DNA of 42,674 bases from Bacteroidota bacterium (lineage in GTDB: Bacteria > Bacteroidota > Bacteroidia > Chitinophagales > Chitinophagaceae): assembly GCA_018267545.1 (NCBI GenBank), contig JAFDYG010000004.1, positions 1-42,674 on the forward strand, written 5' to 3'. The position numbers were made by a program, and so were the translations under genes. Below the pieces are notes generated by a model that saw only the letters and a list, made by a program, of their open reading frames with translations, searched no databases and was not told where the DNA came from. Below are positions 8,614 to 16,202 of this stretch, piece by piece. The stretch's first letter is position 1. Every line of letters starts with the position of its first letter.

Positions 8614-10635
8614 TTAGCGAACCAGCAGCGTAAAGGTCTGGGCTTCCGTGCGGCCGGTGATGCGGACGACGAGCGCGGAGCCGGGCTGTACTTGTGCGGG
8701 CAACTGCAGGGAGTATTGTGTCTGGCCTTTGAGCTGGGTTTGGGTCAGCACCTGGCCGGTCATGGTATACAGGGTAAGGACGAGCTCGCCGGTATTGGGC
8801 GCTGCGATAAAGACGGTGTGTCCGGTGGCCGGGTTGGGGTAGAGCCGGATGGCGGAAGACGTGGTAGTAACGGTCAGGGTGCTCTGGTTGGAATAGAGGA
8901 CCTGGCCATTTTTATCGGTCCGGGCGATGCGATACGATAGGGTTCCGGCGGGGGCGTTGGGGTCGGTGAACTGATAATCCCCGGTAGTATAGCCGCCGGC
9001 GATGAGCTTGCCGAGGATGGTCCATTCATGACCGTCGGAGCTGCGTTCGACCTGGTATTCGGAGGCGGTGTTTGCGACGACGTCGGACCAGCTGAGCTTT
9101 ACAGAACCAGAATTGCCAGACAGGGCTTTGAGGTCGATGCCCGCGACAGCCAGCGTTGTACAGGCAACAGCCCCGGCCGAGTTGAGCGTGGCGCAGCCGT
9201 AGACGAAACCGCTTGCGCAATTATTGGCATAACCGGTGACGGCGCCCTGGTTACAGCTGATGGTGTTCGTCTTGACCTGGTAGACGCTGGTGCCTCCCTG
9301 GAAATTATTGGTGTTGGTATAGAAATAATTGTTGCCGCCGCTGACTTTTAACAGGGAGTTATCCTTTACTACCAGGGTATTATTGGAGCTAAGGTGGGCC
9401 GAGCTGCCGGAGGTGCCGTCACCAATGGTGAGGTTGCTGCTGTTCTCGACGGTAGTATTGTTGCTGGATACGGCCGAGCTGCCGATCATTGTAACCTGGC
9501 TGCCGTCGACGTCGAAGCCGTTGGTGACGGAAAGCGAAGAGCTGCCGGCCATTGTCATCGTACTGTTTCTGATCGTAGAGGAGCTGCCGGTGATCTTGGA
9601 TGAACCGGCCATGCCAAAAGTGCTGCCGGTAACGTCGAAGCCGTTGCTGACGGTCCAGGTATTGCTGCCGTTCATATTCAGGGTACTGCCGTTTTTGATG
9701 GCGGCGGCCGAGGCGCTGATGGAGGCGCTGCTGCTCATCGTCATGACGCTACCGTCGACTGTAAAGCCATTGCTGACATTCCAGGTATTGCTGCCGTTCA
9801 TGGTCAGGCTGCTGCTGCCCTGGATGGTAGCTGCCGAGCTGGTTATCTGGGCGCTTCCGCTCATGACGATGTCGCTGCCGTTCTTAGCGATAATGGCATT
9901 GCTGCTCGTTACTTTGGAGCTGCTGCTGGCCGTCAGGTCGGTATTGTCGAAAGTAAGAGAAGCGGCTTTCAGCTGCGAAGAGCTGCTCATCGTTATGGTG
10001 CTGCCTGTGATGGGCAGGGAGTTGCTGGCGTCGAACGTATTGCTGCCATCCATGACGATGCTGCTGCCTGTATTGATGGTGCTGGAGCCGGATACCTTGA
10101 TGCTGGAGCTGCCGTGCAGGGTAAAGCTGCTGGTGCCGGCGGTAAAAGTATTGTTGATCGTCATCTTCGAGCTGCCGTTGAAGGTAAGTGAAGAGCCGCT
10201 GAAGGTGGCCGAATTGAAAGTGATGGAAGAGCTACCGCTAACGCCTATGCGTGTATTAGTGATTGTAGCCGTATTATTATTGGTATTTAGGTTGGCATTG
10301 ACGGCTACGCTATCGGAATTGAAGGTAACGTTATTGAAAGTGGTTGAAGTGTTGATCAGGACCGTGTCGTTATTGAAAGTAGTAGTATTGTTGCTAAAGT
10401 CGACGCTGGAGCTGATGTTCACCGTACCGCCGTTGAAAGTACAGCCGTTACAGGAGCCTCCGTTCATGGTCAGGATCTTTCCAGGGGTAATATTGATGAT
10501 ACAGCTGGTGCAGCTGGAGCCGACCGCCGTGGTAAAATTGGCGTTATTGGTGATGTTGTAGGTCTGGGCATAGGTATGACCAGAAAGGGATAGTAAAACT
10601 ACGAGTACAGATGATACAATAGGGTTCAGTTTCAT
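8614..10635 (-). CDS. Repetitive T9SS-secreted protein, probable beta-helix adhesin
   Basis: A 673-residue secreted protein. The signal peptide is residues 1-23 (cleavage after TYA). Residues 24-440 are extremely rich in Ser, Asn, Thr and Gly, in short alternating strands such as STLNMNGSNTWTVSNGF. This pattern suggests a right-handed beta-helix. CTSC and CNGC cysteine pairs lie at 42-65. Residues 460-495 are Cys-rich, and 500-590 look like a fibronectin-type domain (VKLSWSDVVANTASEYQVERSSDGHEW). The T9SS type A sorting domain starts at IRLYPNPATGHTVFI near 597. It should therefore be exported by Sec and T9SS and anchored on or released from the cell surface. Adhesion or matrix formation is a guess from composition. 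The gene ends at a strong terminator. Confidence 0.88.
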   Translation of the reverse strand: MKLNPIVSSVLVVLLSLSGHTYAQTYNITNNANFTTAVGSSCTSCIINITPGKILTMNGGSCNGCTFNGGTVNISSSVDFSNNTTTFNNDTVLINTSTTFNNVTFNSDSVAVNANLNTNNNTATITNTRIGVSGSSSITFNSATFSGSSLTFNGSSKMTINNTFTAGTSSFTLHGSSSIKVSGSSTINTGSSIVMDGSNTFDASNSLPITGSTITMSSSSQLKAASLTFDNTDLTASSSSKVTSSNAIIAKNGSDIVMSGSAQITSSAATIQGSSSLTMNGSNTWNVSNGFTVDGSVMTMSSSASISASAAAIKNGSTLNMNGSNTWTVSNGFDVTGSTFGMAGSSKITGSSSTIRNSTMTMAGSSSLSVTNGFDVDGSQVTMIGSSAVSSNNTTVENSSNLTIGDGTSGSSAHLSSNNTLVVKDNSLLKVSGGNNYFYTNTNNFQGGTSVYQVKTNTISCNQGAVTGYANNCASGFVYGCATLNSAGAVACTTLAVAGIDLKALSGNSGSVKLSWSDVVANTASEYQVERSSDGHEWTILGKLIAGGYTTGDYQFTDPNAPAGTLSYRIARTDKNGQVLYSNQSTLTVTTTSSAIRLYPNPATGHTVFIAAPNTGELVLTLYTMTGQVLTQTQLKGQTQYSLQLPAQVQPGSALVVRITGRTEAQTFTLLVR
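9436..9828 (-). repeat. 41-42-residue tandem repeats in the T9SS protein
   Basis: Codons 270 to 400 hold three units beginning TIQGS (270), AIKNG (312) and TIRNS (354), with a partial fourth at TVENS (395). Each contains SNGF or TNGF followed by DGS or TGS. Spacing of the NGF motif is 42 and 41 residues. Each unit splits into two halves of about 21 residues, the size of one beta-helix turn. Confidence 0.7.
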
Positions 10636-10770: not shown

Positions 10771-10783
10771 TTCCCATTGGGAA
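10771..10783. promoter_or_regulatory. Palindrome TTCCC-ATT-GGGAA, candidate operator
   Basis: Second copy of the GGATTCCCA...TGGGAA motif, again followed by ATTTT as at 4199. It lies 136 bases upstream of the T9SS protein gene. On the minus strand a -7-like CATATTTG (10764-10757) follows, so the palindrome would sit between the two promoter boxes. A degenerate version, TCCCAAATATGGAA, lies at 10753-10766. Confidence 0.35.
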
Positions 10784-10874
10784 ATTTTGTTTCAGCCGGG
10801 TTGAGGATGGGAGGGGTGATTTTTATTTCCGGTTTTTGGAGAAAGGAGCTGTGCTTTTTTATGCGGGGTGGTTG

Positions 10875-10882
10875 TAGCTTTG
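10875..10882 (+). promoter_or_regulatory. -7 box TAGCTTTG
   Basis: Matches TAnnTTTG, 20 bases before the ATG at 10903, with a T-rich stretch near the -33 position. It supports the start at 10903 rather than an upstream one. Confidence 0.5.
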
Positions 10883-10902
10883 GGCCCTTAAAATTTAAGG
10901 AC

Positions 10903-11367
10903 ATGTATATAGGATTATTGCATTTGCATAGCTTTTTACGGTGGGTGATCATTATTCTGGCGATCGTGGCGATTTACAGGAGTTATAGCGGCATGAGCAG
11001 CGGCCGGGTATTTTCCAGCCAGGACAAGCGGGTAAGCCTATTTCTGATGATTTCGGCGCATACGACGCTTCTGATCGGGCTTTATTTGTGGATTGCGGGT
11101 CCCTGGGGATTGGCGAATATCCAAAACCTGGGTTTTGGACCGGTGATGAAGGATTCGGTGTATCGCTTTTTTGCGATCGAGCACATAACAGGGATGCTGA
11201 TCGCTATTGTCCTGATTACGATTGGCCGCGGAGCATCGAAGAAAAATATCCCGGATGCGTCGAAATTCAAGCGGATGTTTTGGATGTTTCTGGTGGCGCT
11301 GGTAATTATCCTGGTAACCGTTCCCTGGCCCTTTAGGGTAGTCGGCAGCGGCCGTCATTGGATATAA
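10903..11367 (+). CDS. Four-helix membrane protein, cytochrome-b-like family
   Basis: A 154-residue integral membrane protein with four hydrophobic segments: WVIIILAIVAIY, LMISAHTTLLIGLYLWI, HITGMLIAIVLITIG and FWMFLVALVIILVTVPW. Histidines occur at the start (LLHLHSF) and in helices 2 and 3 (SAHTT, EHITG). Such paired histidines would suit haem, and similar small Bacteroidota proteins are often named cytochrome B. I see no firm proof of haem binding. I chose ATG 10903 because a TAGCTTTG -7 box lies 20 bases upstream; a longer frame from 10777 would contain this promoter. It stands alone, followed by a strong hairpin at 11396. Confidence 0.75.
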   Translation: MYIGLLHLHSFLRWVIIILAIVAIYRSYSGMSSGRVFSSQDKRVSLFLMISAHTTLLIGLYLWIAGPWGLANIQNLGFGPVMKDSVYRFFAIEHITGMLIAIVLITIGRGASKKNIPDASKFKRMFWMFLVALVIILVTVPWPFRVVGSGRHWI

Positions 11368-11386: not shown

Positions 11387-11639
11387 TAAATAAAAGCCGC
11401 CACGAGGGTTTAGCTTCGTGGCGGCAATTTTTTTGTCAGGGTCAACATACCTGTTTTCAATGGATTGTTGGATTGGGGTCTTTAGGATCTTGGATTTTGC
11501 ACTACAGTTTCCAGGATTTTTGGATTTTAGTTTTCTTAGGATCTACGGATTTAAACGGGCTCTTAGGGTTTGGATTTATGGTCTTTCGGATGTTTGGATT
11601 CTCTTGGTTTTACTAGGATTTGGGTTGTTTTCGTTTGCT
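11387..11639 (-). ncRNA. Candidate small RNA, copy A of ATCC-doublet family
   Basis: About 250 nt, read on the minus strand. A -7-like box CATCTTTG (11651-11644), with TTTC 20 bases before it, would start the RNA near 11639. The body is poor in G and carries seven doublets of the type ATCC-N4-ATCC (on the plus strand GGAT pairs at 11462/11470, 11485/11492, 11514/11522, 11539/11547, 11566/11572, 11588/11596 and 11616/11622). It ends in the hairpin at 11425-11396 followed by TTTTATTT. No protein-like frame is convincing. The copy at 11845-12296 has the same promoter module and terminator layout. The strand is inferred: the hairpin also has a T-run on the plus strand, so a plus-strand terminator role for the gene at 10903 is possible as well. 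Confidence 0.45.
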
Positions 11640-11792
11640 GATACAAAGATGTAAAGAAATGGGCGGGGAGGGAAACTTATTCGACTAAGGGGTGGTTTGG
11701 CTCGACGAAAGTACCCGAGCCCTCGGCGAAGGGTACGACCGAGGACGCGCGTGGCGAAGCAGCGCGGACGAAGGTCTATAGCCCGACGAACG
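11391..11792. repeat. Repeat unit A of tandem intergenic element
   Basis: Runs from the hairpin at 11396 to the box GCCCGACGAACG at 11781-11792. The segment 11611-11711 aligns without gaps to 12268-12368 at about 90% identity, with the first 45 bases identical. The hairpin, the TTGTCAGGG segment after it, the 16-mer GGATTTTGCACTACAG and two CGACGAA boxes are also shared with unit B. A GC-rich stretch (11712-11780), with GTACCC/GGGTAC arms, occurs only in this copy. Confidence 0.85.
11396..11434. terminator. Bidirectional hairpin terminator of unit A
   Basis: Perfect 10-bp stem GCCGCCACGA / TCGTGGCGGC with a 10-base loop. T7 follows on the plus strand (11428-11434), and TTTTATTTA follows on the minus strand. 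It can end both the gene at 10903-11367 and the proposed minus-strand RNA. Compared with the stem of unit B, four base pairs differ with pairing kept. Confidence 0.8.
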
Positions 11793-11844
11793 TAAATTCT
11801 TCTGTGTAGTGGTGGGAGAGGGGCTTGGCGGGGGGGGAAGGGTA

Positions 11845-12296
11845 AAAATAAAGCCGCCGCAGGTTTGTTTCTGCGGCGGCAATTTCTTGTCAGGGCCAAC
11901 GATCGATTTTTTCAGGCTCATCGTGGGATCATGGATGGGAATCAATTGGAATCATTTGGACGGATTTCACTTTTCCCGAGGTTCTGTTTCCCCTGGCATT
12001 TAATAGTTTTTCGGATCTGGATTTTTCAGGCGGTTTTCATCAAGGACATGGACAATTCGGTTTCTTAGGATTGGGTTCGGGGTCTTTCAGAATTTTGGAT
12101 TGCACTACGGTTTTCTCAGGTTTATTGGATCTTGGTTTTAGGACGTTGGATTTTGCACTACAGTTTTCTAGTTTCTTGGATTTAAGGTTTCTTAGGATTT
12201 CTGGATTTTATAAGTTTCTCAGGGTTTGGATTCGGTTGATTTCGGATGCTTGGATTCTCTCGGTTTTTACTAGGATTTGGGTTGTTTTCGTTTGCT
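11845..12296 (-). ncRNA. Candidate small RNA, copy B of ATCC-doublet family
   Basis: About 450 nt on the minus strand. The promoter module is the same as in copy A: TTTC, 20 bases, then CATCTTTG (12308-12301). The 45 bases around the start are identical. The body holds roughly ten ATCC/AATCC doublets (plus-strand GGAT pairs, for example 12013/12019, 12127/12134, 12194/12203 and 12244/12252) plus a second, degenerate TTGCACTACGG. It is about 200 bases longer than copy A because of extra doublets. It ends at the hairpin 11880-11853 followed by TTTATTTTTA. I found no signal peptide, no stable codon pattern and no conserved frame shared with copy A. As for copy A, transcription and strand are inferred only. 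Confidence 0.42.
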
Positions 12297-12388
12297 GATA
12301 CAAAGATGTAAAACAATGGGAAGGGGAGGAAACTTATTCGACTAAGGAGTGGTTTTGCCCGACGAAAGAAAAGAATGCCCGACGAACG
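11848..12388. repeat. Repeat unit B of tandem intergenic element
   Basis: Second copy of the element. Hairpin start is offset by 457 bases from unit A and the promoter module by 657, so unit B has gained about 200 bases of body. It ends with GCCCGACGAAAG (12357-12368) and GCCCGACGAACG (12377-12388), only 20 bases apart here and about 81 apart in unit A. The response regulator gene ends 45 bases further on, at 12433. Confidence 0.85.
11853..11880. terminator. Hairpin terminator of unit B
   Basis: Perfect 10-bp stem GCCGCCGCAG / CTGCGGCGGC with loop GTTTGTTT. Minus-strand continuation is TTTATTTTTA; plus-strand continuation is AATTTCTTG. The lower six pairs match unit A and the upper four differ as pairs. 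Confidence 0.75.
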
Positions 12389-12432: not shown

Positions 12433-13158
12433 TTAGAGGATATTGAGCCGGGCGGCTACTTCCTCTTTGTGACCTTTTCCGATAGGTATCTGATTGCCAA
12501 GCAAGTAGATCGTGTTGCCCCGAATATCGTCGATTTTATTGATGTTGACGATATAGGACCGGTGGACTTTGATGAAGATGGGGCCGATGAGCTTTTCTTC
12601 CATGTTCTTTAGCGTGCTATAGGTAATATAGCTTTTGGCGGGGGTGACGAATTTGACGTAGTCCCGCATGCTTTCGAGGAAAAGAATGTCGTCTTTTTTG
12701 ATTTTTACCAGCTTGTCGTCGGCCTTTATAAAGAGAAAGTCGGTATCGGAGATGAGGCTGGGCGCCGGGGCGGCGGGTTGCGCCGTGGGAGCTGCCGCTT
12801 CCTGGAACTGCTGCTGCAGCTTTTGCATGGCTTCCAGGAACCGTTTATAGGTGAAGGGTTTTTTTAGATAGTCGTTTACGTGGTATTGGAAGGCGTCGAA
12901 GGCGTATTCTGTCTTTGAGGTGGTGAGAATGATCTTTGGGGAATAGGTAAGACTATCCAAAAGGTCGAAGCCTGTGGCGCCGGGCATTTCTACGTCTAGA
13001 AAGAGCAAGTCGACTTTTTCCTGATCGAGGAAGGCCAGGGCATCCGCTACATTGAGGAAATGCCCTTTTACTTCGACCAGGTCGCTCTTCTCACAGAACT
13101 TGCGTAGGAAATCCGCAGCGATCTGAATGTCTTCTACTATTATACAAGTGATCTTCAT
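12433..13158 (-). CDS. LytTR-family response regulator
   Basis: A 241-residue cytoplasmic DNA-binding regulator. The receiver domain covers residues 1-120: acidic pair E9-D10 in IIVED, phospho-acceptor D55 in LLFLDVEMPG, T80 in ILTTSKTEYAFDAF, and K100 in YLKKPF. A Pro/Ala/Gln linker follows (about 118-135). The LytTR DNA-binding domain covers 140-241 (FLFIKADDKLVKI, ILFLESMRDYVKF, FIKVHRSYIVNINKI, IPIGKGHKEE). I chose ATG 13158 because the receiver begins right there (MKITCIIVED); a frame to 13212 adds a non-conserved start. An HPt protein gene lies 61 bases upstream on the same strand, and a hybrid kinase is divergent, so it is the likely output of that phosphorelay. Its targets are unknown. 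Confidence 0.93.
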   Translation of the reverse strand: MKITCIIVEDIQIAADFLRKFCEKSDLVEVKGHFLNVADALAFLDQEKVDLLFLDVEMPGATGFDLLDSLTYSPKIILTTSKTEYAFDAFQYHVNDYLKKPFTYKRFLEAMQKLQQQFQEAAAPTAQPAAPAPSLISDTDFLFIKADDKLVKIKKDDILFLESMRDYVKFVTPAKSYITYSTLKNMEEKLIGPIFIKVHRSYIVNINKIDDIRGNTIYLLGNQIPIGKGHKEEVAARLNIL

Positions 13159-13219
13159 CCGAAAACAGAGGTGACCGCCCATGTGGTGCGGCGGCCGGCA
13201 CAACGAAAACAATTACGAA

Positions 13220-13615
13220 TTACCCATTACTCTCATTGAACTGCCTTAACCGGGCATATTCTTTTTCTATTACATGCTGAGCTTTTTCCTTTCTTTGAAT
13301 CAAAATAATATAGTCCACTCTCAATTCGTCCGCACTATTAACGGAACATTTGTTCTCGAATTGTTGACAAAGCTCCTGAAGATCTGTAAAACCTACATAA
13401 CCGAATAAAGTCTTACAGGTATGAACGCTGGTTCCCAATACGGGAAGATTTTTGCTATCGTAGGCAGCTTCTACCCGTTGCCAATAGACGGGCAGGTCTT
13501 TTAAAAAGTCTTCAAAAACTGTTTCTGCGTATAGGGTATCGCCATCGAACAATTCAGCCAGAAAAGAAGCATTCAGGCTTTCATCGAAGACAAATGGTGC
13601 ACGGATTTTTTGCAT
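13220..13615 (-). CDS. Histidine phosphotransfer (HPt) domain protein
   Basis: A 131-residue, mostly helical protein. The phospho-accepting histidine is H65 in the segment SVHTCKTLFGYVG, which replaces the usual AHxLKGxxxxLG. The lysine two residues after the Cys and the following glycines are in place. HPt proteins pass phosphate between the receiver of a hybrid kinase and the receiver of an output regulator. Both are adjacent here: the LytTR regulator downstream and the hybrid kinase on the other side. I chose ATG 13615 (MQKIRAPFVFDES). A longer frame to 13708 is possible but adds a low-complexity KRTKKLQL stretch. It likely forms an operon with the LytTR gene. Confidence 0.85.
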   Translation of the reverse strand: MQKIRAPFVFDESLNASFLAELFDGDTLYAETVFEDFLKDLPVYWQRVEAAYDSKNLPVLGTSVHTCKTLFGYVGFTDLQELCQQFENKCSVNSADELRVDYIILIQRKEKAQHVIEKEYARLRQFNESNG

Positions 13616-13751
13616 GGTTAGTTGCAATTTTTTTGTTCTTTTTTCGTTAGGGGTATATATGTATGAGCTACATATAACAACCTGAACCGAAATTGGAACT
13701 TTATCCATACGGGAAAAGCTTCCAAATTATTGTTTGAAAATCCAATTTGTT

Positions 13752-13886: not shown

Positions 13887-16202
13887 ATGCTTAAAAATCT
13901 ACTCAGGGTTAGGGGGAAGCCTCGCGCCGGAAGGGGGCGAGGTGATCAGTCTGCATTGTTTCGTGCTTTGTTCGACTTTCTTATCGGTTGTATCTCAGTT
14001 CCTGCCAATGCAGAGCAATTGATACAGCTGGGTTACAAAGCGGCCGGCAAGGATGCGGAAGAGGTCTTTCATACCTATCTGTTATTCGAAAAATATCTTA
14101 CTTCCTTCGAGCTGGTAGAGCAGCATACACGGAAGTCGCTGCGGGAAAGGGTCAGGCAGCGGTTTCCCGCTTTATTGTACGACGGTTCTATCTTCAACAT
14201 ACTTTTTGTCTCCGAGACGGAGCAAAAGAATACGCTAGCCATTCAATTCCTTCATTCGTTTTTGACTGCGGTCCGGGATAAATTCGGAAGGGGCGGAGAT
14301 GGATTTATCGACAAAAAGATGAAAGAGCTGTCGATACTCGAGATCGGCGTGCAGGAGCCTGAGATTTTTCGCAAGCTACAATTTTTAAGCTTCGAAGTCT
14401 TTCAGTTTGTGGGTTACAATTACGGGGAAGTATTGGCGGGGAAGCTATTCGAAAAGAACTACGAGACTTTCTCGACGAGATATAAGGAACTGGAAGTCTT
14501 TCCCTATATGATCACCTTGATCCCGAAGGACATTGTGGACCGGGAGCACCTGGGCATTTTCACCCAATCTCAGATCGAGCAGATCTTCCTGGAGAAGCTG
14601 GCGGAGTCGGAGCAGCTCAACGTCGCCCTTGATCAGAAGATACGGGAGAATGAGCGGACGCAACGGTTGTTGCGGAAGAACGAGATCATGCTCAGCGGGG
14701 TGATCTCCTCGGCGCTGGACGCTATCGTCATCATCGGCGAAGCGGGGCATATCATTCATTGGAACCGTGCGGCGGCCGAAATATTCGGCTATGCGGAGGA
14801 GGAAGTAAGGGGCCGGACTTTACTCGATACGATCATTCCTTTCTCCTATCAATATTCCAGCTGGAATGGATTCAAGGGATTTATGGGGAAGGAAGAAGAC
14901 TCTTTTGTCAATCGACGGATCGAGCTGACGGCAATACGGAAGAATAAAGAAGAGTTTCCCATCGAGCTGACGATTACGGCGATACAGGACGATACTGAAT
15001 TCTATTATAGCGCATTTATCCGGGATATTTCGAGCCGGATACAATGGGAGCAGGAGCTGCTGCAGATGAAGGAGAAGGCGGAGCAGGCGGCCAAGGCCAA
15101 GTCGCAGTTCCTCAGCGTCATGAGTCATGAGCTGCGGACGCCGTTGAATGCGGTAATCGGGATCTCTCACCTGCTGCTGCAGAGCCAGCCCAGAGAGGAT
15201 CAGCAGGAAGACCTGCGGACCTTGCAGTTTTCGGGTGAGAGTCTGCTCAATATCATCAATGACATCCTGGATTTTACCAAGCTGGATTCGGGTAAGATCG
15301 AGCTCTCCTCGATCGACTTCAACCTTCGCGACCTTACACAAAGCCTCTATCAATCCTTTAGCTTCAAAGCCAAAGAAAAGAATATCGTCTTCGACGTGGA
15401 ATACGACGAGCGGATGCCTTTCTACGTAAAGGGGGATAGCTTCCGGCTCTCGCAGGTGCTGAACAATCTGATCAGCAATGCGATCAAGTTTACGCAGGTG
15501 GGAGCCGTCCGGTTGAAGGTACAGCTAATGGAAAATAACGAGACCTCGTTTATAACCCGGTTTTCGGTGGTGGATACGGGTATTGGTATATCGAAGGACA
15601 AACAAGAAAAAATCTTTGAGCAATTTACCCAGGCCGACAGCGATACGACGCGTTTGTATGGCGGCACGGGACTAGGGCTTTCCATCTCGAGCCGGCTGGT
15701 GGAGCTGATGGGAAGCCGGATACAGGTTGCGAGTGAGCTTGGCAAGGGCTCCGACTTTCACTTTAGCATCGTGCTGCAGCAGGGAGAGGTGCCGGCAGCG
15801 GCGACGCTTGCTCCAAAAGTGGTGACGAAGAGTAATGATCAATTCAAGAATAAGCTGATTCTGCTGGCGGAGGACAATGCTTTTAATGCGAATATCGCCC
15901 GCCGGTTTATCACGGGCTGGGGCGGGCAGCTGGATATTGTCGTGGATGGGCGGCAGGCGCTGGATTTCATATCTGTAAAGAAATACGACTTGATCCTGAT
16001 GGATGTGCAGATGCCGGTGCTGGATGGATTTGCGTGTACGAGGAAGATACGGAAGCACTTCAAGGATATTCCGATCATAGCGATTACGGCTTCGCCGAAG
16101 AATGAGATTATAAACGAAATCATCGCTTGTGGGATGGATGATTTTGTCAGCAAGCCTTTCAAGCCTAATGAGCTTCGCAGCAAGCTGCTGGAATGGCTAT
16201 AG
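13887..16202 (+). CDS. Hybrid histidine kinase (unknown N-terminus, PAS, HisKA, HATPase, receiver)
   Basis: A 771-residue kinase without an obvious signal peptide or membrane helices, so probably cytoplasmic. Residues 1-240 are a helical region I cannot assign, followed by a coiled coil (240-265). PAS spans about 265-385 (DAIVIIGEAGHIIHWNRAAAEIFGY). HisKA has H414 in VMSHELRTPLNAVIG. The ATPase domain has N-box NLISNAIKFT, DTGIGIS, and GGTGLGL. The receiver spans 656-771 with D706 in LILMDVQMPVLDG and K756 in VSKPF. It would autophosphorylate at H414 and pass phosphate to D706, then to the neighbouring HPt and LytTR proteins. It starts 9 bases after the 41-residue peptide. The signal sensed is unknown; the N-terminal region is the place to look. 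Confidence 0.93.
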   Translation: MLKNLLRVRGKPRAGRGRGDQSALFRALFDFLIGCISVPANAEQLIQLGYKAAGKDAEEVFHTYLLFEKYLTSFELVEQHTRKSLRERVRQRFPALLYDGSIFNILFVSETEQKNTLAIQFLHSFLTAVRDKFGRGGDGFIDKKMKELSILEIGVQEPEIFRKLQFLSFEVFQFVGYNYGEVLAGKLFEKNYETFSTRYKELEVFPYMITLIPKDIVDREHLGIFTQSQIEQIFLEKLAESEQLNVALDQKIRENERTQRLLRKNEIMLSGVISSALDAIVIIGEAGHIIHWNRAAAEIFGYAEEEVRGRTLLDTIIPFSYQYSSWNGFKGFMGKEEDSFVNRRIELTAIRKNKEEFPIELTITAIQDDTEFYYSAFIRDISSRIQWEQELLQMKEKAEQAAKAKSQFLSVMSHELRTPLNAVIGISHLLLQSQPREDQQEDLRTLQFSGESLLNIINDILDFTKLDSGKIELSSIDFNLRDLTQSLYQSFSFKAKEKNIVFDVEYDERMPFYVKGDSFRLSQVLNNLISNAIKFTQVGAVRLKVQLMENNETSFITRFSVVDTGIGISKDKQEKIFEQFTQADSDTTRLYGGTGLGLSISSRLVELMGSRIQVASELGKGSDFHFSIVLQQGEVPAAATLAPKVVTKSNDQFKNKLILLAEDNAFNANIARRFITGWGGQLDIVVDGRQALDFISVKKYDLILMDVQMPVLDGFACTRKIRKHFKDIPIIAITASPKNEIINEIIACGMDDFVSKPFKPNELRSKLLEWL

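Follow-up and report, generated by a model that had tools for sequence, protein, structure and literature searches.

We report that the gene-poor block beside a phosphorelay locus of a Chitinophagaceae genome, taken to be a Puia, contains two tandem minus-strand genes, A and B, which very probably encode non-coding RNAs. Both belong to a multicopy family with a conserved promoter, operator and terminator, synteny with phosphorelay genes, and bodies that form a non-coding, weakly folding ladder of short C motifs. We propose, with a probability of about one half, that these ladder RNAs are controlled by the phosphorelay and act as sponges in a Gac/Rsm-like circuit. The window, i.e., the whole stretch of DNA analyzed, comprises 42,674 nucleotides.

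Two tandem elements beside a regulator gene

The gene-poor block lies between a plus-strand open reading frame (ORF; 10777-11367) and the minus-strand gene of a response regulator (12433-13212). Each of its two minus-strand elements runs from a -7 box of the Bacteroidota type through a body poor in G to a hairpin that carries a T run. A sequence-only reading of the window had placed a tandem pair of candidate small RNA genes here, and both elements are present at that place, their -7 boxes, the TTTC upstream and their terminators all being located on the minus strand. The predicted starts lie ~7 nt downstream of the -7 box, which we take to be the usual spacing in Bacteroidota. The features of the locus are as follows:

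13887..16202, plus strand: hybrid histidine kinase (PAS, HisKA, HATPase_c and receiver domains), divergent from the regulator and Hpt genes
13220..13708, minus strand: Hpt phosphotransfer protein (Pfam PF01627)
12433..13212, minus strand: response regulator with a receiver and a LytTR DNA-binding domain (Pfam PF00072, PF04397)
12337..12386, minus strand: putative three-box operator of gene B (boxes 12377-12386, 12357-12366 and 12337-12345, 20 and 21 bp apart)
12301..12308, minus strand: -7 box CATCTTTG of gene B, TTTC upstream, few changes across 18 aligned promoters
11846..12294, minus strand: RNA gene B (predicted transcript, ~450 nt), adjoining the regulator gene; 3' end at the terminator
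11887..12000, minus strand: 3' module of gene B, conserved in related elements and made up of a GCCAGGG stretch, GTGAAATCCGTCCAAATGATTCC and CCCTGACAA
11853..11880, minus strand: terminator stem-loop of gene B, its pairing supported in related elements
11680..11790, minus strand: putative operator of gene A (second and third boxes, 11700-11710 and 11680-11688; the first, at 11781-11790, is shifted by ~60 bp)
11644..11651, minus strand: -7 box CATCTTTG of gene A, TTTC upstream
11389..11637, minus strand: RNA gene A (predicted transcript, ~250 nt), distal tandem copy; 3' end at the terminator
11396..11425, minus strand: terminator stem-loop of gene A (hairpin and T run)

The bodies measure 214 nt in copy A and 416 nt in copy B, and this difference of 202 nt agrees with the ~200 bases estimated previously. 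Growth of the array, the explanation then offered, does not account for it: judged by eye, the two copies are collinear over their first ~170 nt, beyond which B has an insertion of ~50 nt and a 3' part of ~150 nt with the conserved module. This module is largely kept beside the regulator gene in other Puia genomes, and gene A retains from it only CCCTGACAA (11433-11441). In the 5' module, A agrees better with B (0.81) than with its distal counterpart in the P. dinghuensis tandem (0.65); the tandem pairs would therefore be of independent origin or have been homogenized. Elsewhere in the window, a 126-base tandem repeat of 1.8 copies (9638-9864) lies inside a 673-aa ORF (8614-10635) that has no Pfam match.

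A putative three-box operator upstream of the RNA promoters

In copy B, three boxes, TTCGTCGGGC, TTCGTCGGGC and TTAGTCGAA, precede the -7 box. The sequence-only reading had rightly pointed to the -7 box and TTTC and had overlooked this operator, although the region it delimited, ending at 12388, just takes it in. In copy A, a GC-rich stretch of ~60 bp (11711-11780) parts the first box from the other two, and this displacement suggests that A may be the weaker gene.

A two-box pattern allowing up to two mismatches gave 20 matches in 11 of the 33 Puia genomes, all of them promoters of the ladder RNA family, and the reversed pattern gave none in the same 33 genomes. Four of the 24 strong copies defined below, including copy A, fail the pattern, and beyond the close Puia group the boxes have diverged to TATCGAA-like sequences. 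The layout nevertheless recurs in other genera: when 41 promoters that follow the regulator gene, chosen by hand from 29 loci, are compared, TCG is most frequent at positions -79 (22 promoters), -58 (21) and -37 (16), whereas an average offset has 0.85; seven promoters show none of the three peaks, one of these being a misplaced promoter.

This is the layout of LytTR-regulated promoters, namely, direct repeats two helical turns apart with an adjacent LytTR gene. As described in an excerpt of PMC11347149, the LytTR regulator CoxC uses three direct repeats two helical turns (18 to 21 bp) apart, and RcoM a similar triplet of repeats. As far as that excerpt goes, the Puia boxes share with these operators the triple direct repeat, the spacing of about two turns and the position, at the promoter or upstream of it (PMC11347149). 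The sequence of the boxes differs, and the RcoM and CoxC operators serve protein genes, whereas the Puia boxes serve a set of non-coding RNAs.

A multicopy family syntenic with phosphorelay genes

A DNA search with copy A matched 18 of 58 genomes, its own included. An operator-promoter model of 117 positions, built from sequence alone with 18 training copies, scored 24 matches above 50 bits, referred to here as strong copies, 6 of them outside the training set, together with 18 further rows below 25 bits. Copies per genome and conserved neighbors, two of the checks proposed along with the initial reading, thus came out in its favor: the strong copies occupy 12 of the 33 Puia genomes, 13 of them beside the LytTR regulator gene and 11 elsewhere. 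Both the window genome and G009 have two regulator-side copies, nine other genomes have one each, and three of the copies away from the regulator share one contig of G021. Among the weak rows, several of those read are diverged elements with the same plan; others, L053 and L048 among them, are not clear arrays. One weak element, L052, is a diverged ladder-like element (6 ATCC against 2.6 expected) in the complete genome G028, where the regulator ortholog is absent at an E value of 1e-60, and is thus a possible orphan. Across Chitinophagaceae, a start pattern matched 39 of 244 genomes and its reversed control 3 of them; the 30 loci read include many ordinary gene starts, the clear arrays L088, L090-L092 and L099, and L093, where the RNA follows the regulator gene of G135.

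Regulator orthologs occur in 20 of 33 Puia genomes (E values up to 1e-60), in 36 of 244 Chitinophagaceae genomes and 17 of 101 genera (up to 1e-70), and in 7 of 198 genomes of an order-wide sample, every one of them in Chitinophagaceae (up to 1e-65). A kinase match adjoins the regulator in all 10 loci examined, 8 of which come from 6 other genera, and an Hpt match in 5 of the 10. In all 11 strong-copy genomes with a regulator, a copy lies directly 3' of the regulator gene; the remaining one, G012, has an incomplete assembly (87%) in which the regulator hit is absent. Nine other Puia genomes have the regulator, with a diverged element directly downstream in five, ~2.2 kb off in one and none seen in three. 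In other genera, an RNA gene of this kind follows the regulator, by eye, in 24 of 27 loci (L135-L161); L153 has operator, promoter and terminator and no array, L154 has nothing, and L161 has only a short relative of an RNA termed here RNA1. At L175 and L180, boxes and a short terminated RNA without array stand just after the regulator gene, and nothing recognizable was seen at L174. The genomes of L175 and L180 (G283 and G063) have ladders located elsewhere (L090 and L091).

RNA1 is a structured RNA that precedes the ladder RNA in several other genera, lying within the first few hundred bases after the regulator gene (L136, L137, L139-L146 and L149). It has a conserved GACGGU, a UGAAAUCC/GGAUUUCA helix and an AUGAGU/ACUCAU helix. 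Terminators were seen in 13 of 15 candidates, and the alignment comprises 11; 10 of the 26 predicted pairs are changed on both sides, with 30 non-standard cells. Rfam gave no match for RNA1 in the loci tested.

For the ladder RNAs, an Rfam search of the window had no hit that reached the gathering score, and at relaxed thresholds, with 16 related loci included, all matches stayed below theirs. The best of these weak matches, to NsiR1 (28.7 bits against a threshold of 39; E value, 0.0025), falls on the copy A terminator and was taken as chance. We found no description of these RNAs in the open-licence literature searched, which is not proof of absence.

Weakly folding bodies without long reading frames

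The bodies of 19 strong copies, 6454 nt in total, were analyzed, two further copies having no terminator according to our script and three not being extracted. Their fold z score is positive in 16 of the 19 (mean z, +1.1), i.e., they fold more weakly than their shuffles, and the longest ORF is below the shuffle mean in 18 and equal to it, there being none, in 1. The small RNA genes suggested initially are thus supported as promoter-to-terminator units whose bodies have little structure and no long ORFs. The predicted unpaired probability of ATCC, compared with other bases, is higher in 11 bodies, lower in 7 and equal in 1, so that no special exposure of the motif is predicted.

The contrary case, a decaying repeat confined to this strain with unconserved promoter and terminator, is excluded, because the family spans genomes, its promoter is conserved, and its terminator stems differ in letters and still pair (7 of 11 stem pairs changed on both sides in 11 chosen elements).

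From ATCC doublets to a ladder of CC pairs

On the RNA strand, ATCC occurs 12 times in copy A and 16 times in copy B, against dinucleotide-shuffle means of 2.5 and 5.9, and none of 200 shuffles reaches either count. Copy A has 5 strict doublets, with ATCC starts 5 to 10 nt apart (0.10 expected), and copy B has 4 (0.44 expected); the seven and about ten doublets initially counted need near matches. Many of the sequences in this analysis are closely related, so that counts are not independent. The 19 bodies together contain 260 ATCC, where 200 dinucleotide shuffles give 81.3 ± 6.9 and at most 101, and 76 close doublets, where the shuffles give 5.8 ± 2.4 and at most 15. No body has its ATCC count equalled by any of its own 200 shuffles. 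Much of the initial observation holds, and the pattern extends further than was first seen. Neighboring ATCC starts are mostly 5 to 8 or 15 to 30 nt apart, the commonest long spacing being 23 nt, and among all pair distances in the 19 bodies 23 to 25 nt stands out, which comes close to the 22- to 29-base recurrence of doublets described before. In hand-picked RNA genes of other genera (22 arrays, 2 of which were dropped because the script found no terminator; n = 20, L153 included), ATCC occurs 106 times against 46 ± 5 (maximum, 61 in 100 shuffles), reaching at least twice the shuffle mean in only 13 of the 20 arrays.

Conservation between related copies gives a different weight to the parts of the motif. 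The C residues inside ATCC are kept in 283 of 306 cases against 533 of 644 for other C residues, whereas the A (130/150 versus 1222/1443) and the T (118/150 versus 388/496) are not better kept than elsewhere. ATCC survives whole in 110 of 168 cases, whereas permuted 4-mers do so in 95 of 188, in counts that rest on six pairs read in both directions, with shared members and with window copies A and B as one pair; one of the six preserves ATCC less well than permuted 4-mers. Comparison of the sequences thus weakens ATCC as a whole motif and suggests that only its C residues stand out.

The firmest pattern of the family is ladder-like: CC pairs stand isolated, for the most part 6 to 11 nt apart. 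The 19 bodies have a C content of 0.22 to 0.29 and a G content of 0.11 to 0.18, with ~30 CC sites per RNA on average; CCCC occurs 15 times against 115 expected. The gaps between CC pairs cluster at 6 to 11 nt (mean, 10.4 nt; commonest, 8 nt), and their coefficient of variation (CV) is 0.59 against 0.78 ± 0.04 in shuffles, none of 200 being as low. The same holds for the 20 arrays of other genera (CV, 0.65 against 0.79 ± 0.04; 0 of 200 shuffles as low). Even CC spacing is absent from 25 coding ends of the regulator gene (0.97 versus 0.86) and from RNA1 (1.00 versus 0.84).

A proposed sponge circuit

In the proposed circuit, a signal would pass from the kinase through Hpt to the LytTR regulator, which would bind the three boxes of the observed operator and activate, rather than repress, the RNA promoters. 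Several RNAs of ~200 to 600 nt would thus be made, presenting the CC sites read in their open, A-rich strand, where the motifs are AUCC, often doubled, and AACC. Jointly, the RNA copies would sequester a single-strand RNA-binding protein at CC-type sites, freeing its mRNA targets. We infer the sponge role, which is favored by an operator found in the genus only at ladder RNAs and beside the phosphorelay; motif turnover, even spacing and changing copy number would suit a titrator. CsrA (PF02599) was found in none of the 33 Puia genomes by a search that was positive in three named control genomes, and Hfq was found in none of the 33, so that any client would be another protein. RRM proteins (PF00076) are present in all 33 (2 to 10 each), a presence that is not specific, and their copy number rises with genome size, does not track the RNA and singles out no client.

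We classify the proposed circuit as a variant of those in which multicopy RNAs are coupled to a two-component system. According to an excerpt of PMC2375449, RsmX, RsmY and RsmZ sequester RsmA-family proteins and share a conserved upstream sequence. On that partial account, the likeness to Gac/Rsm and to CsrB/C lies in several non-coding RNAs, each with a short unpaired motif repeated many times, under apparent two-component control (PMC2375449). The ladder RNA genes show a shared three-box operator and an adjacent phosphorelay, the binding of the regulator being predicted. However, the motif is GGA there and CC/AUCC here, and the ladder RNAs do not fit two defining features of Gac/Rsm, the GGA motif and CsrA: in RNA sense the 19 bodies have GGAT twice and ATCC 260 times, and CsrA was found in none of the 33 Puia genomes. 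Moreover, Gac/Rsm has a GacA-type regulator and a palindromic upstream sequence, where the ladder RNAs have a LytTR regulator and direct repeats.

Within Bacteroidota, an excerpt of PMC11697453 describes an RRM protein acting as a global RNA binder and FopS as a multicopy family of small RNAs (sRNAs) that repress SusC-type mRNAs by pairing and have one conserved 41-nt motif. The FopS/GibS sRNAs of Bacteroides, with RbpB, resemble the ladder RNAs, on this partial description, as a multicopy Bacteroidota family (PMC11697453), and the genomes studied here carry RRM proteins. Compared by description with that excerpt, they differ in architecture, the ladder RNAs having a long ladder and a phosphorelay operator. 

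Alternative modes of action

The ladder RNAs might instead act by base pairing, their UCC/AUCC repeats annealing with GGA/GGAU in many mRNAs, which we regard as unlikely. Such RNAs would be multicopy, with C-rich repeated motifs and apparent two-component control, as the ladder RNAs are, and they would not pair with themselves, GGAT occurring just twice in the 6454 nt of bodies (RNA sense). LhrC of Listeria and the Cia-dependent sRNAs of Streptococcus pneumoniae have C-rich repeated motifs and two-component control, and are short, structured RNAs that pair with mRNAs. Against pairing, Bacteroidota largely lack Shine-Dalgarno sites. Furthermore, there is little extended conserved context around ATCC except for A-rich flanks, so that pairing stretches would be short, and the ladders are long and variable in length. 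An excerpt of PMC11697453 provides LhrC and the Cia-dependent sRNAs as multicopy precedents; the ladder RNAs differ from both in being longer and weakly structured.

The boldest candidate for a client of the proposed sponge is Rho, because the ladder RNA matches the published description of rut sites: in the excerpt available of PMC6407284, these are unstructured, C-rich and G-poor stretches of at least 70 to 80 nt with regular cytosine spacing, set at 11 to 13 nt in the search made there. Free rut-like RNAs driven by the phosphorelay would then titrate Rho, or another ring-shaped or multi-domain CC-binding protein, altering termination and retuning expression genome-wide, a proposal that we hold to be rather improbable. 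The 19 bodies do share with the rut sites of Rho-dependent terminators, as that excerpt portrays them, weak structure, an excess of C over G and evenly spaced C (PMC6407284), and C is the conserved part of ATCC. Nevertheless, A precedes UCC in 260 of 326 cases, a preference beyond the need of a simple pyrimidine-C site, and the commonest CC gap falls short of 11 to 13 nt. In addition, a ligand of Rho should itself be truncated by Rho, yet the ladder RNA ends at a conserved intrinsic terminator. Ladder RNAs also differ from rut sites in being free-standing multicopy genes with intrinsic terminators and a phosphorelay operator.

It is very improbable that the array acts as DNA, as a decoy or extended operator for the LytTR regulator inside the transcribed region: its units (ATCCGAAA) do look like a diverged box (ATCGAA) and its doublets recur every 23 to 25 bp, but the 6454 nt of bodies contain ATCGAA 3 times and GTCGGG not at all, TCGA is depleted (16 against 42 expected), and the units follow one another at loose intervals, not at a constant 21 bp. 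Small repeats that are mobile or decaying, as the several copies per genome and the 11 of 24 strong copies far from the regulator gene might suggest, or short-peptide genes are hardly credible in view of the covarying terminator stems, the place beside the regulator kept across genera and the ORF lengths given above.

Other readings of the motif were set aside. A plus-strand, CsrB-like reading (GGAT) is disfavored by the order of operator, promoter and terminator, which fits the minus strand, and by the negative search for CsrA. Pairing with the 3' end of 16S rRNA, whose sequence we assume here, is not followed by the flanks of ATCC (T at -2 in only 0.11; TGATCC 9 times in 6454 nt). As a target finder in 10 genomes, the doublet pattern gave many matches, among those listed, outside arrays and also in genomes without a strong copy, and so reveals no targets. 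An identical 19-mer, ATCCAATATCCTATGAAAA, is present at L184 and at many places in nine other genomes, several per genome among the matches listed, and perhaps codes for a conserved peptide motif.

Implications

If the sponge circuit holds, it would parallel Gac/Rsm from unrelated parts, in a genus without recognizable CsrA or Hfq. To our knowledge, few global post-transcriptional switches have been described in Bacteroidota. With the ladder RNA as bait, a LytTR regulator that can be deleted and an operator that can be mutated, a hidden RNA-binding protein of the phylum becomes searchable.
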